Below are positions 1 to 11,223 of a stretch of 11,223 nucleotides of DNA, one piece after another (position 1 is the stretch's first letter; the number at the start of each line of letters is the position of its first letter). The notes under the pieces are model-generated. The model had not been told where the DNA came from, searched no databases, and saw only the letters and a list, made by a program, of their open reading frames with translations. The stretch spans positions 1 to 11,223 of the forward strand of contig JALSKR010000213.1 in the NCBI GenBank assembly GCA_026988735.1, in the 5' to 3' direction. The position numbers and the translations under genes are program-made. This stretch comes from Sulfurimonas sp. Lineage in GTDB: Bacteria; Campylobacterota; Campylobacteria; Campylobacterales; Sulfurimonadaceae.

Positions 1-1115
1 ATCAGATTTGTACAAATTGTGTGATGGACACGACAGATCCAGAGATTGAATTTGATGAAAATGGTGTCTGTAATCACTGTAGAAGGTTTGAAAAAGAGAT
101 AAAACCACGATGGTTTCCAAATGAGATTGGGAAAAAGAAGCTTGATAACATCATAAAAGAGATAAAAAAAGATGGTGAAGGAAAAGAATATGATTGTGTT
201 ATAGGACTTAGCGGAGGGGTTGATAGTAGTTATTTGGCATATGTGCTCAGAACACAATATCCTGAGCTTAAAATATTGGCTATTCATATAGATGGTGGAT
301 GGAATAGTGAACTCGCAGTGCATAATATTGAAAATATTGTAAAAATTCTTGATATTGATCTGCATACTGGTGTTATTAATTGGGAAGAGATGAAAGACCT
401 GCAACTTGCTTATTTTAAATCACAACTTGCAAATCAAGATGTTCCACAAGACCATGCTTTTTTTGCAACACTTTATAAGGTAGCAAATAAGTACAGTATT
501 AAATATTTTTTGACAGGTGGCAATTTTGCTACTGAATCTATCTTGCCTTCAGCTTGGGGCTATAATGCAATGGATGCCAAACAACTTAAGGCTGTACATA
601 AGCAATTTGGAAAAATAAAACTCAAAGAGTACACAACCGTTAGTTTTTTTCAAAAATACATCTACTATCCTTTAATTAAAAAATTTAGAATCATCAGACC
701 GCTTGATCTTATGGAGTATAATAAAGATGAAGCAAAAAGAATCATTATGGAAAAAATCAACTGGAAAGATTACGGAGCAAAACATCATGAAAGTAGATTT
801 ACCAAATTTTTTCAAGCACATTGGCTTCCAAGTAAATTTGGTTTTGATAAAAGGAGAGCACATCGTTCAAGTTTGATTGTAGCAGGACAAATGAGTCGAG
901 AGGAGGCTCTTCATGAGCTGAAAAAGCCACTTTATGATGAACACGAGCTAAAAGAAGATGTTGAATTTCTTTCTAAAAAGATGGGTTTAAGCGTAAAAGA
1001 ATTTAAAGATATTATGAAGATACCAAATAAAACTTTTAGAGATTACCCCTCAGATTATGAGTTTGAGCAGAAGATGAGAAAGTTTTATGCATATATAAAA
1101 AAGTTGAAGAAATAG
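1..1115 (+). CDS. wbpG: N-acetyl sugar amidotransferase, WbpG/PseA family (5' partial)
   Basis: The family is an ATP-dependent, PP-loop amidotransferase that turns an N-acetyl group on a nucleotide sugar into an acetamidino group, using ammonia from a HisH/HisF-like partner pair. The ATP-binding motif SGGVDSS is at nt 210-230. Two Cys pairs are visible: CTNC (nt 9-20) and CNHC (nt 69-80), around the family signature CVMDTTDP and FDENGVC. The GTG at nt 21 looks like a start but encodes Val inside this signature, and the frame is open to the left edge, so the true start lies upstream. About 370 residues are visible, close to the family's roughly 375-380. The stop at 1113-1115 abuts the next ATG. 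Neighbouring glycosyltransferases and a WbpI-type epimerase favour a 2,3-diacetamido-hexuronate substrate, but a pseudaminic or legionaminic acid pathway (PseA-like) is not excluded. The family call is firm; the substrate is inference. Confidence 0.9.
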   Translation, partial: QICTNCVMDTTDPEIEFDENGVCNHCRRFEKEIKPRWFPNEIGKKKLDNIIKEIKKDGEGKEYDCVIGLSGGVDSSYLAYVLRTQYPELKILAIHIDGGWNSELAVHNIENIVKILDIDLHTGVINWEEMKDLQLAYFKSQLANQDVPQDHAFFATLYKVANKYSIKYFLTGGNFATESILPSAWGYNAMDAKQLKAVHKQFGKIKLKEYTTVSFFQKYIYYPLIKKFRIIRPLDLMEYNKDEAKRIIMEKINWKDYGAKHHESRFTKFFQAHWLPSKFGFDKRRAHRSSLIVAGQMSREEALHELKKPLYDEHELKEDVEFLSKKMGLSVKEFKDIMKIPNKTFRDYPSDYEFEQKMRKFYAYIKKLKK

Positions 1116-2288
1116 ATGATAAATAATCTTCACATCTCTTTAACAAATCTAAAAAATGAAAGTAGAATGCTTAAGGAGACAGATACACTTGTTAAAAAAA
1201 GTATATTTAAAAAAATATATATCGTTGGGTTACATGAAGGTGATTTGAAAAATATTGAGCTTATTGATGAGCATAGAGAGATAAATAGAATATCTTTAAA
1301 AAGTAGAGATTTACCAAAAAATCTCTTTTTTCAGTTGATAAAATATATGGAGTATCTAACTATTATCTTATATAAATACAGAAAAAAAAATATAAGGGTA
1401 GTCAATGTGCATGCTTTAGGCTTATTACCTATAGGTGTATTCTATAAGTTTTTTTTTAATGTGAAGTTGATTTATGATGCTCATGAGTATGAAACACAGA
1501 CACAAGGGCTGAGGGGCTTAAGAAAAAAACTGGCATCTATTTTAGAAAAAGTTCTTATCCCCTATTGTGATAAGACAATTGTAGTGAGTGAATCTATAGC
1601 CGATGAGTATAAAAAACTTTATCCAAAATTACAGAGACCTATTGTTGTTCTGAATACACCAGCATATAAAGAGATGAAGAAGAAAGATATATTTAGAGAA
1701 AAATTTAATATAGAAAAAGATACAACTATTTTCTTGTATCAAGGTGGACTAAGTAGAGGTAGGGGAATAAAAATATTGCTTGAAGTGTTTAAGGGGTTAT
1801 CAAGGTACCCAGTCAGTAATAGCAAATCTACAAATACACCAGTAATAGTCTTTATGGGGTATGGAGAGTTAGAAAATTTAGTAAAAGAGTATTCAAAAAA
1901 ATATGAAAATATCTATTTTCATGAAGCAGTTACTCCTGATGCACTTCTTAATTATACATCAAGTGCAGATTTTGGGATATTATTTTATGAAAATAATTGT
2001 TTAAATCATTATTATTGTTCACCAAATAAAATGTTCGAGTATTTAATGGCAGAAATCCCTGTAATAGTCTCTAATCTTTATGAAATGAAGAGTTTAGTAG
2101 AAAGTTATAGTATAGGTGTAGTTGCAAAAGTGAATACTCCAAAAGGCTTAAAAGATGCTATAAAACAAGCAATAAAGCTTGATAAAAAAGAGTTACAACA
2201 AAATATCCAAAAAGCAAAAGATATTTATAATTGGGAAGAACAGGAGAAAGTTTTACTTGATGCCTATAAGGATGTATATGCAAATTAA
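1116..2288 (+). CDS. Glycosyltransferase family 4 (GT-B fold)
   Basis: A cytoplasmic glycosyltransferase, 390 residues, probably adding one sugar to the lipid-linked glycan. The N-terminal acceptor domain contains DAHEYE at residues 121-126, followed by the VSES segment near 157-160. The C-terminal donor-binding domain has a Gly-rich loop GGLSRGRG (210-217) and the GT4 signature [15 protein letters not shown] (303-317). The protein is soluble; the hydrophobic stretches look like Rossmann strands. The ATG directly follows the TAG of the amidotransferase, with only a weak purine-rich GAAGAA upstream, so translation is probably coupled. Coding is very A-rich and contains a run of nine A and a run of nine T. 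Donor and acceptor cannot be read from the sequence. The family call is solid and specificity unknown. Confidence 0.85.
1382..1390 (+). repeat. Homopolymer A9 within the first glycosyltransferase gene
   Basis: Nine consecutive A encode Arg-Lys-Lys-Asn around residues 89-92. It is one of the two longest homopolymers seen in the window and a possible slippage site; a one-base change would truncate the enzyme. Confidence 0.8.
1449..1457 (+). repeat. Homopolymer T9 within the first glycosyltransferase gene
   Basis: Nine consecutive T encode Phe-Phe-Phe at residues 112-114, 58 bases after the A9 tract in the same gene. Possible slippage site; AT-rich coding alone could also explain it. Confidence 0.8.
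2268..2272 (+). promoter_or_regulatory. Ribosome binding site deciding the start of the second glycosyltransferase
   Basis: AAGGA lies 5 nt before the ATG at 2278, inside the 3' end of the upstream gene. The more upstream in-frame starts, including the ATG at 2179, have no comparable site and would give an atypical Lys-rich extension. This supports the short overlap model. Confidence 0.65.
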
Positions 2289-9846: not shown

Positions 9847-10944
9847 ATGGATAGAATTTTCCTTTCACCTCCACACATGAGTGGCAAAGAACAAACCTAT
9901 ATTGCTGAGGTATTTGAAAGTAATTATATCGCTCCGCTTGGTGCATTTGTGAATCGTTTTGAAGAAAGCGTTGAAGCGTATACAGGTAGTGCAAATGCCT
10001 TGGCACTTTCAAGTGCCACAGCAGGGTTACATTTGGCTTTGAGGGTGCTTGGCATTACACAGGGAGATTATGTTCTGGCATCAAGTTTTACTTTTATTGG
10101 GTCTGTATCAGCTATTTTGTACCAAAATGCAAATCCTATTTTTGTAGATAGTGATGAGAGCTGGAATATCTCTCCTTCATTATTGAAAGAAGCTATTGCA
10201 AGAGCTCCTAGAAAACCCAAAGCATTGATTGTGACGCATCTTTATGGACAAGTATGTAAACTAGATAAAATCATGGCTATATGTAAAGAAGAAGGTATCT
10301 CCCTGATAGAAGATGCCGCGGAGTCTTTAGGTGCAAGGTATCATGAACAGCAAAGTGGCACTTTTGGTGATATGGCAGTGTATAGTTTCAATGGAAATAA
10401 AATACTCACTACTTCTGGCGGGGGAATACTCGTAAGTGAAAATAGAACGTGGATAGAAAAAGCAAAATTTCTCTCTACTCAGGCAAAAGAAGACTACTTA
10501 CACTATGAGCACAAAGAGTTTGGGTATAACTATAGAATGTCGAATGTTTTAGCAGCGATTGGTGTAGCGCAGATGGAAGTTTTGAATAAAAGAGTAGAAC
10601 GGAAAAGAGAAATTTTTGCACTTTATAAAAAATACTTAGATGACATAGCTGAAATACAATTTATGCCAGAAATAGAAGGAAGTTGTGGAACACGTTGGTT
10701 AACAACACTTACTTTTGAAAAGACAAGTCCTAAAAAAATCATAGATATTTTAGACAAAAAAAATATAGAGAGTCGCCCTCTATGGAAACCTATGCATATG
10801 CAACCTCTGTTCAAAGATGCCTTAGTTGTTGAAGATGGTACAAGTCAGAAACTCTTTGAAAAAGGGATATGTTTGCCTAGTGGTACGAGCATGTCAAATG
10901 ATGATATTGAAGCTATTTGTGGGCTTATAAAAGGTGCATTGTAA
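9847..10944 (+). CDS. pglE: PglE, UDP-4-keto-sugar aminotransferase (DegT/DnrJ/EryC1/StrS)
   Basis: A PLP-dependent aminotransferase that converts the 4-keto, 6-deoxy product of PglF to UDP-4-amino-4,6-dideoxy-GlcNAc in the cytoplasm. It has 365 residues, slightly shorter than C. jejuni PglE. The PLP lysine is Lys185 in [15 protein letters not shown]; Asp156 in IEDAAES should contact the pyridine nitrogen; [11 protein letters not shown] (55-65) is the phosphate-binding loop region. [15 protein letters not shown] (26-40) and [15 protein letters not shown] fit the sugar aminotransferase subgroup. AGGA (9837-9840) lies 6 nt before the ATG and the gap to pglC is 3 nt. In C. jejuni, pglD separates pglC from pglE; it is missing here. 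Identification rests on motifs and the following pglF; a close paralogue such as PseC is less likely given that context. Confidence 0.93.
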
Positions 10945-11223
10945 TGCATAGGATTTTTAAACCGACTTCCACAAAAAGGTTACTGTTTTTTGTATTTGTC
11001 GATAGTATTCTTTCTGTAGTAACTTTGTATTTGGCGTATTCTTTACGTTTTAATTTCCATATTCCTGAAATGTTTTTAACACATTTTTGGCATGTATATA
11101 TCGTACTAACATTTTCCAAAATCATGGCACTATATCTTTTGAAAAATTATTTCATCATTTGGAGATTTTTTTCGTTTGTTGATGCAAAAAATATTGTTTT
11201 ATCCCATATAGTAGCTTATGGGC
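10944..11223 (+). CDS. pglF: PglF, UDP-GlcNAc 4,6-dehydratase, N-terminal membrane part (3' partial)
   Basis: The first 93 codons of a membrane-anchored nucleotide-sugar dehydratase (PglF/WbpM/CapD family), which makes the UDP-4-keto-6-deoxy sugar used by PglE. Visible are a basic N-terminus, a first membrane helix around residues 13-33 ending in LAYSLRFN, a second around 48-66, then KNYFIIWRFFSFVDAKNI, which matches the C. jejuni PglF pattern before its later helices. The NAD-binding and catalytic domain lies beyond the window edge. The ATG overlaps the pglE stop by 1 nt (TAATG). Family assignment relies on the N-terminal membrane pattern and on the position right after pglE; which dehydratase subgroup it belongs to needs the missing part. 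Confidence 0.85.
   Translation, partial: MHRIFKPTSTKRLLFFVFVDSILSVVTLYLAYSLRFNFHIPEMFLTHFWHVYIVLTFSKIMALYLLKNYFIIWRFFSFVDAKNIVLSHIVAYG

Follow-up and report, generated by a model that had tools for sequence, protein, structure and literature searches.

Does an operon in which O-antigen-type amino-sugar genes run into protein N-glycosylation (pgl) genes build one acidic N-glycan? The question is raised by an 11,223-nt stretch from a Sulfurovum-like metagenome-assembled genome (MAG), filed as Sulfurimonas sp. (GCA_026988735.1; 1.86 Mb, 291 contigs, 80% complete; here G000). The stretch analyzed, hereafter the window, is the entire contig G000:C213 (JALSKR010000213.1). From comparison of its genes with those of relatives, we consider it probable that the window is the pgl locus of one of two clades of the oligosaccharyltransferase PglB found in the genus, and that it specifies an N-glycan containing a 2,3-diacetamido-uronate, made by the steps proposed below. 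The operon joins acidic-sugar-type genes to PglB, and in relatives the entire pathway lies next to this enzyme; the sugar chain on its target proteins is therefore probably unlike the familiar one of Campylobacter.

Gene content of the operon

Eleven called open reading frames (ORFs), all on the forward strand, occupy the window end to end, and no intergenic gap exceeds 3 nt. The ten junctions measure, 5' to 3', 0, -11, -1, -8, -8, +2, -8, -1, +3, and -1 nt. These junctions and the family assignments confirm the one-strand operon described in the initial annotation, with amidino-uronate-type genes running into pgl genes; the operon is of a recurrent type. Both contig ends interrupt genes. In order, the features are as follows.

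3..1115, + strand: wbpG-type N-acetyl sugar amidotransferase (WbuX family), first codons missing; TIGR03573 311.5 bits (cut-off 203.2), PP-loop SGGVDS
1116..2288, + strand: GTa, a family 4 (GT4) glycosyltransferase; PF00534 50.7 bits, homologues in pgl loci L003, L007, and L010
2278..3387, + strand: GTb, a GT4 glycosyltransferase; PF00534 84.4 bits, start chosen at ATG 2278 (the mechanical ORF begins at 2179)
3387..4445, + strand: wbpI-type UDP-2,3-diacetamido-glucuronate 2-epimerase (Epimerase_2; UDP, uridine diphosphate); TIGR00236 321 bits, solved relative 8sxv
4438..5259, + strand: X273, 273 aa, GTG start; predicted FemX/MprF-fold transferase
5252..5932, + strand: class I S-adenosylmethionine-dependent methyltransferase, TTG start; PF13649 55 bits
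5935..7149, + strand: GTc, a GT4 glycosyltransferase directly before pglB; PF00534 55.8 bits, grouping with its L004 counterpart at 99/99 in a tree
7142..9244, + strand: pglB oligosaccharyltransferase (STT3); PF21436 148 bits, PF02516 94.8 bits, 371 bits to C. lari PglB (5ogl/6gxc)
9244..9843, + strand: divergent small phosphoglycosyl transferase (PGT); PF02397 163.6 bits, in its own clade at 99/97
9847..10944, + strand: pglE-type DegT aminotransferase; closest to C. jejuni PglE, with 445.8 bits for 1o61, 443.6 for 4ztc, and 262.5 for the next match
10944..11223, + strand: pglF, first 93 residues, cut by the contig end; 49% identical to PglF of L003

The initial annotation read the upstream half as amidotransferase, GT4, and epimerase; this succession stands, with two GT4 genes rather than one between WbpG and WbpI. 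The uronate genes do run contiguously into pgl genes as it proposed, by way of the methyltransferase and X273 genes that it left unnamed. The epimerase scored 382.9 bits against 8sxv, a solved UDP-2,3-diacetamido-2,3-dideoxy-glucuronic acid 2-epimerase, compared with 309.2 bits against 4neq and at most 172.2 bits against the others listed, so the window holds the WbpI 2-epimerase of the UDP-ManNAc3NAcA pathway. With TIGR03573 above its cut-off, it also holds the amidotransferase of the acetamidino module (WbpG-HisH-HisF2), 83% identical to WbpG of locus L007.

PglB aligns to the C. lari enzyme over its full length and scores 468 bits against NF050801, under that model's cut-off of 1300. Residues E315 and R327 correspond to C. 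lari E319 and R331, and DTD is present; the catalytic residues are those of a PglB, and the signature is complete but for its Gly (WWDYA for WWDYG). Passages of PMC4894442 indicate that an Arg at the R331 position alone is no proof of the acidic -2 rule. WWDYA occurs in one of 64 PglB rows from the fetched loci (one other row, from G002, reads WWDYS, and one is a fragment without the region) and in 3 of 120 listed database relatives, counting the window PglB itself and the 82% identical P0242. Since P0242 carries WWDYA too, a sequencing error is unlikely. P0243, a relative 75% identical to the window PglB, keeps WWDYG.

Acidic-sugar genes beside PglB in relatives

The same assembly encodes a second PglB, 38% identical to that of the window, at L012 (G000:C271, 4573-6606, - strand), beside nucleotidyl transferase, phosphoglucose isomerase, and UbiD genes. 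The PglBs of all fetched loci split into clade A (C271-like) and clade B (window-like), the labels being the best blastp match to these two references. A 42-row tree separates the clades at 100/100; for this tree, clade A was thinned by hand to 19 rows, three database proteins were added, and the duplicate L191 was dropped. L191 was also left out of the PGT and GTc trees and the locus count, and is still one of the 64 motif rows. Clade B includes PglBs named Sulfurovum lithotrophicum (57% identical to the window) and Sulfurovum NBC37-1 (56%). The PglB of Sulfurovum strain XGS-02 is 70% identical to that of the window. A passage of PMC6025236 counts S. lithotrophicum among organisms with identified oligosaccharyltransferases, citing Mills 2016; the enzyme meant may not be the clade-B protein. 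Judged from gene sizes only, clade-A pglB islands (L083, L085, L089, L090, L151, and similar ones) seem to sit at one genomic site, where the variable glycan region is repeatedly followed by flanking genes of the same sizes (about 392, 188, 148, 157, and 1085 aa).

Two PglB clades in one bin, an estimated contamination of 3.15%, and a window GC content of 32.2% (34.7-38.3% in seven other measured contigs of the assembly) would fit a contig from another organism that was mis-binned. We regard this as very unlikely, given that G048 too holds PglBs of both clades and that pgl islands run low in GC (e.g., L090 at 30.4% versus 36.8% in its flank). The operon also recurs, with L004 keeping WbpI-GTc-PglB-PGT-PglE at 65-77% identity to the window. 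Mis-binning would in any case leave the nature of the operon unchanged. Nine relatives found through PglB are named Sulfurovum sp. (four), Epsilonproteobacteria or Campylobacterales bacterium (four), and Bacteroidetes bacterium (one, probably mis-binned).

A survey of 135 genomes of the genus retrieved nine WbpI matches in eight genomes (E <=1e-80) and nine window-like PglB matches in nine genomes (E <=1e-160). Five of the nine WbpI copies precede a clade-B PglB by 1.2-2.7 kb, namely those in G000 (the window), G143, G053, G121 (contig C275), and G014; the G014 PglB is truncated, falls below the E cut of the survey, and was assigned to clade B by best match. By genome, WbpI and clade-B PglB co-occur with a Fisher P of 6e-4 when nine clade-B genomes are counted and 4e-5 when G014 is added as the tenth. 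Within 12 kb of PglB, a WbpB, WbpD, WbpE, or WbpI gene (at least 60% identity) was present at 10 of 21 clade-B loci versus 2 of 44 clade-A loci (Fisher P 7e-5, computed on 45 clade-A ORFs since L105 contains a split pglB). An amidotransferase gene, for which WbpG and HisF2 (identity of at least 50%) and fused glutaminase-WbuX proteins were counted, was present at 4 of 21 and 0 of 44, respectively. All counts include the window and ignore relatedness, and some loci are cut by contig ends. The 12-kb check stayed inside the fetched piece of each PglB, so that the upstream pieces L181, L190, and L160 went uncounted; WbpG of G105 and WbpE/WbpG of G054 lie outside it by distance.

Fuller pathways occur in several relatives. 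In G053 (L190, L117) and G143 (L181, L182), a single strand encodes WbpA-B-D-E, a DNA-ligase-like protein, a flippase, further genes, WbpI, GTc, PglB, an aminotransferase, a PGT, and PglF. The two WbpA proteins score 545 and 524 bits to TviB, under the 592 of that model and above the cut-off for general nucleoside diphosphate-sugar dehydrogenases. Three genes separate flippase and WbpI: two pass a Pfam glycosyltransferase cut-off in G053 and one falls below, while in G143 one passes and two are weak NCBIfam glycosyltransferase matches. Locus L010 reads WbpB-D-E (WbpE at 383 bits to the solved WbpE), hexapeptide gene, flippase, two glycosyltransferases, WbpI, GTc, PglB, and PglC, with no WbpA within the piece examined. 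G009 encodes WbpA-B-D-E, a flippase, an AsnB-like protein, glycosyltransferases, PglB, and PglC-D-E-F, with no WbpI over the cut. For the amidotransferase branch, L007, from a MAG named Sulfurovum, encodes in a row HisH (cut), HisF2 (NF038364 376 bits, cut-off 310), WbpG, two glycosyltransferases, PglC, PglD, and PglB; HisH and HisF2 are also present in G105 and G167. Fused glutaminase-WbuX proteins of 607-609 aa were observed in PglB loci L003 (3960-5789) and L125 (1164-2987), where HisH and HisF2 might be unneeded; they score 145 and 143 bits, under the WbuX cut-off.

The arrangements of G053, G143, L010, G009, and L007, which are contiguous with pglB, and the five WbpI copies upstream of clade-B PglB lend comparative support to an amino-uronate module that serves the N-glycan, as the initial annotation had it. 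Because relatives have such pathways beside PglB, and given the counts of 10 of 21 versus 2 of 44, an acidic 2,3-diacetamido-uronate in the N-glycan appears likely. Amidination of the uronate is plausible but rarer, with 4 of 21 clade-B loci carrying the relevant genes.

Two glycans could in principle be made from one operon, the WbpG/WbpI half serving one polymer and PglB-PGT-PglE-PglF another. WbpG-type genes in relatives do lie mostly away from PglB, and the PGT-PglE-PglF loci L187, L188, L112, L099, and L006 have PglB and no Wbp genes. We nonetheless find such a division highly improbable: WbpI stands directly before GTc and PglB in seven loci (L003, L009, L010, L117, L118, L182, and L186) and nearly so in L004, where a 169-aa gene intervenes before GTc, and the window holds a single PGT.

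Several observations do weigh against a dedicated N-glycan locus. WbpI lies away from clade-B PglB in four of nine cases (G101, G004, G002, and G121 C87). WbuX is above cut-off in 14 of 99 relatives and shares a contig with PglB in only three: the genes are adjacent in G000 only and about 20 kb apart in G046 and G054, with WbuX on another contig in eight and no STT3 match in three. The separate contigs result in part from fragmented assemblies. A single island of G105 combines WbpA-B-D-E and a flippase with WbpG-HisH-HisF2 and a window-type PGT-PglE-PglF set; it also encodes an 11-segment membrane protein that matches no family and a PglB, which belongs to clade A and is separated from WbpG by about 26 kb. 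G167 (WbpG-HisH-HisF2-GT-GT-PglC-PglD-PglE, where GT is a glycosyltransferase) and G004 (WbpA-B-D, glycosyltransferases, WbpI, a glycosyltransferase, PglC-D-E-F) have PglB on another contig. To these are added the departure from the WWDYG motif and the content of the window's own assembly, in which we found no WbpB match, a best WbpE-like protein of 30% identity, and a best HisF of 236 of the 310 bits required (WbpA, WbpD, and HisH were not searched); as the assembly is 80% complete, the last point is not decisive. Given G105, G167, G004, and the WbuX locations, such modules can occur without a neighboring pglB, and a function in lipopolysaccharide (LPS) is still conceivable.

The sugar module might accordingly build an O-antigen or capsule repeat, with pglB only co-located in the island, or a lipid-linked unit common to LPS and PglB. 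In the O-antigen cluster of Pseudomonas aeruginosa O5, amidotransferase, glycosyltransferase, and WbpI genes follow one another as wbpG-wbpH-wbpI, serving a WbpA-B-D-E-I pathway, and PglF is a relative of WbpM. The window shares this amidotransferase-glycosyltransferase-WbpI order, and the G105 island and the similar modules of G167 and G004 also speak for such a role. Unlike the O5 cluster, however, the window continues to PglB, has a second glycosyltransferase gene between wbpG and wbpI, and encodes a PGT instead of WbpL. The window encodes neither a Wzx flippase nor a Wzy polymerase. From WbpA through PglF, G053 and G143 each encode a single flippase, no recognized polymerase, and, by crude hydropathy and families, no other multi-segment membrane protein except PglB and PglF; the 436-aa membrane protein encoded ahead of WbpA in G143, considered as a polymerase, was identified as ArsB. 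PglB is moreover translationally packed between GTc and the PGT, with overlaps of 8 and 1 nt, and even the G105 island still includes a PglB. An O-antigen or capsule role, or a unit shared with LPS, thus seems unlikely to us, if worth bearing in mind, and we retain the N-glycan reading.

Initiating transferase and linking sugar

The initial annotation called the PGT gene pglC, implying bacillosamine as the linking sugar. Neither label was borne out. The window PGT matches solved PglC at 81.5 bits, compared with 268 bits for the canonical Sulfurovum PglC of L007, and it falls in a separate clade. Relative to two canonical PGTs, window-type enzymes differ at columns 66-86, the mobile-loop columns, and carry about 16 extra residues near column 152. 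PMC12550135 reports substrate clusters among small PGTs, substrate specificity of the mobile loop (residues 61-81 in C. concisus PglC), and use by WcfS of UDP-FucNAc4N, in which the 4-amino group is free. In light of these clusters and the loop, the divergence of the window PGT makes a linking sugar other than di-N-acetylbacillosamine plausible.

Gene neighborhoods point in the same direction. No PglD was found in the window by Pfam or NCBIfam, and the best score in its own, incomplete assembly was 55.9 bits against the TIGR03570 cut-off of 160.8, which PglD of L007 passes at 196.6 bits as a positive control. The best PglD-like blastp candidate in the assembly (contig C261) was rejected as gamma-carbonic-anhydrase-like. 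The 24 distinct PGTs of the fetched loci comprise 13 canonical and 8 window-type enzymes, and 3 belong to a third type. In all 11 canonical loci whose contig extends to the gene after the PGT, that gene is of the hexapeptide kind (its best blastp match is PglD-like, in some at only 26-28% identity); the other 2 of the 13 are interrupted by a contig end. The window-type PGT is directly followed by PglE in eight of eight, and the third type by PglF in three of three. Counting the immediate next gene only and ignoring relatedness, the contrast between canonical and window-type PGTs (11/0 versus 0/8) gives a Fisher P of 1.3e-5. With no pglD between window-type PGT and pglE, the linking sugar may therefore differ from bacillosamine.

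Two results count against a simple version of this proposal. L004, which has a window-type PGT, carries a hexapeptide gene elsewhere in the locus, between WbpI and GTc. X273-like genes were not found (blastp 1e-8) in the other window-type PGT loci (L004, L006, L099, L112, L151, L187, and L188), and X273 was rejected as a general PglD replacement. For these reasons, PglD-free chemistry and X273 as a PglD substitute are both no more than tentative readings. X273 itself matched no Pfam or NCBIfam family, and a PDB sequence search gave nothing useful (best E 0.29); its predicted fold groups with FemX/MprF.

Comparison with L003 suggests that initiation genes may move as a set. L003 is 67%, 75%, and 70% identical to the window in PglB, PglE, and WbpI, but only 32% in the PGT and 33% in GTc, and it adds a hexapeptide gene, as if PGT, PglD, and GTc had been swapped in one event. 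The GTc of L004 groups with that of the window, and the glycosyltransferase at that position in G105 is 22% identical on a long branch; this concordance of PGT and GTc types is suggestive only. A third initiation cassette was observed in L117, L119, and L182, consisting of an ArnB-like aminotransferase (276 bits, tested in L182), another PGT type, and PglF. The G105 glycan island also contains sulfotransferase-family genes (L150 9066-10004; L151 9002-9859), one of them directly before the window-type PGT.

Proposed route and known systems

From gene content, we infer the following substrates, order of addition, and off-contig partners. PglF and PglE would convert UDP-GlcNAc (GlcNAc, N-acetylglucosamine) to a UDP-4-amino-4,6-dideoxy sugar, which the divergent PGT would load onto undecaprenyl phosphate with no acetylation by a PglD encoded nearby. 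GTc would add a second sugar, and GTa and GTb would add 2,3-diacetamido-uronic acid residues from a UDP donor made by WbpA-B-D-E (off contig) and epimerized by WbpI. WbpG, using ammonia from HisH/HisF2 (off contig), would turn one acetamido group into acetamidino, and the methyltransferase and X273 would decorate the chain further. A flippase encoded off contig would then move the oligosaccharide, and PglB would transfer it to Asn. In a more specific version, the first sugar is not bacillosamine, its 4-amino group either staying free or receiving an acyl or aminoacyl group from the FemX-fold X273, and an acetamidino-modified 2,3-diamino uronic acid follows. The result would be a bacterial counterpart of the Methanococcus N-glycan, with exchangeable initiation cassettes (PGT, PglD, GTc) around one PglB clade. 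We advance this version tentatively and think it rather doubtful as a whole.

To our knowledge, bacterial N-glycans contain neutral N-acetylhexosamine (HexNAc), bacillosamine, or HexNAc-uronate residues. Like the C. jejuni pgl locus, the window has PglB, PglE, and PglF homologues, a PGT, and a glycosyltransferase in the PglA position; unlike it, the window is without pglD, has a PGT far from PglC, and adds uronate and amidotransferase genes.

PMC6025236 reports that the N-glycan of Helicobacter pullorum contains HexNAcA (the uronic acid of HexNAc) and its amide and is truncated when wbpO or wbpS is knocked out, and that one of two PglBs, PglB1, transfers a glycan independent of PglDEF. There, as proposed here, O-antigen-type wbp genes feed uronates into a PglB-dependent N-glycan, and each genome has two PglBs. 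The H. pullorum glycan has HexNAcA and its 6-amide, and the pgl genes there are spread over five loci, whereas the window has WbpI, of the 2,3-diacetamido pathway, and WbpG in one operon with PglE and PglF beside PglB. PMC2952790 describes an acetamidino precedent, the agl N-glycan of Methanococcus maripaludis: its third sugar has a 3-acetamidino group, which is lost on mutation of MMP1081, a WbpG homologue. M. maripaludis uses the archaeal AglB and N-acetylgalactosamine (GalNAc) as linking sugar, while the window would use bacterial PglB and a PGT-initiated undecaprenyl route. H. pullorum and M. maripaludis are thus precedents for the principle of such sugars in N-glycans. A system that unites 2,3-diamino uronate, amidotransferase, PglB, and non-PglC initiation was not found in the literature searched (open-licence PMC papers).

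If true, a family of loci that encode the complete diamino-uronate pathway, in some cases along with amidotransferase genes, would broaden bacterial N-glycan chemistry in parallel with an archaeal N-glycan. That the initiating transferase is swapped and the neighboring pglD lost with it raises the testable question of which linking sugars this PglB clade accepts.

Two minor features of the related loci were also recorded. A small gene that resembles DNA ligase, with DNA_ligase_A_M and OB domains, lies right after wbpE in the glycan operons of G053 (L190 13023-13823) and G143 (L181 12425-13225), and G053 also has an ORF6N gene. In L188 and L006, LicD is encoded beside a window-like pglB, along with cytidylyltransferase genes in L188, a hint of phospho-substituted N-glycans.

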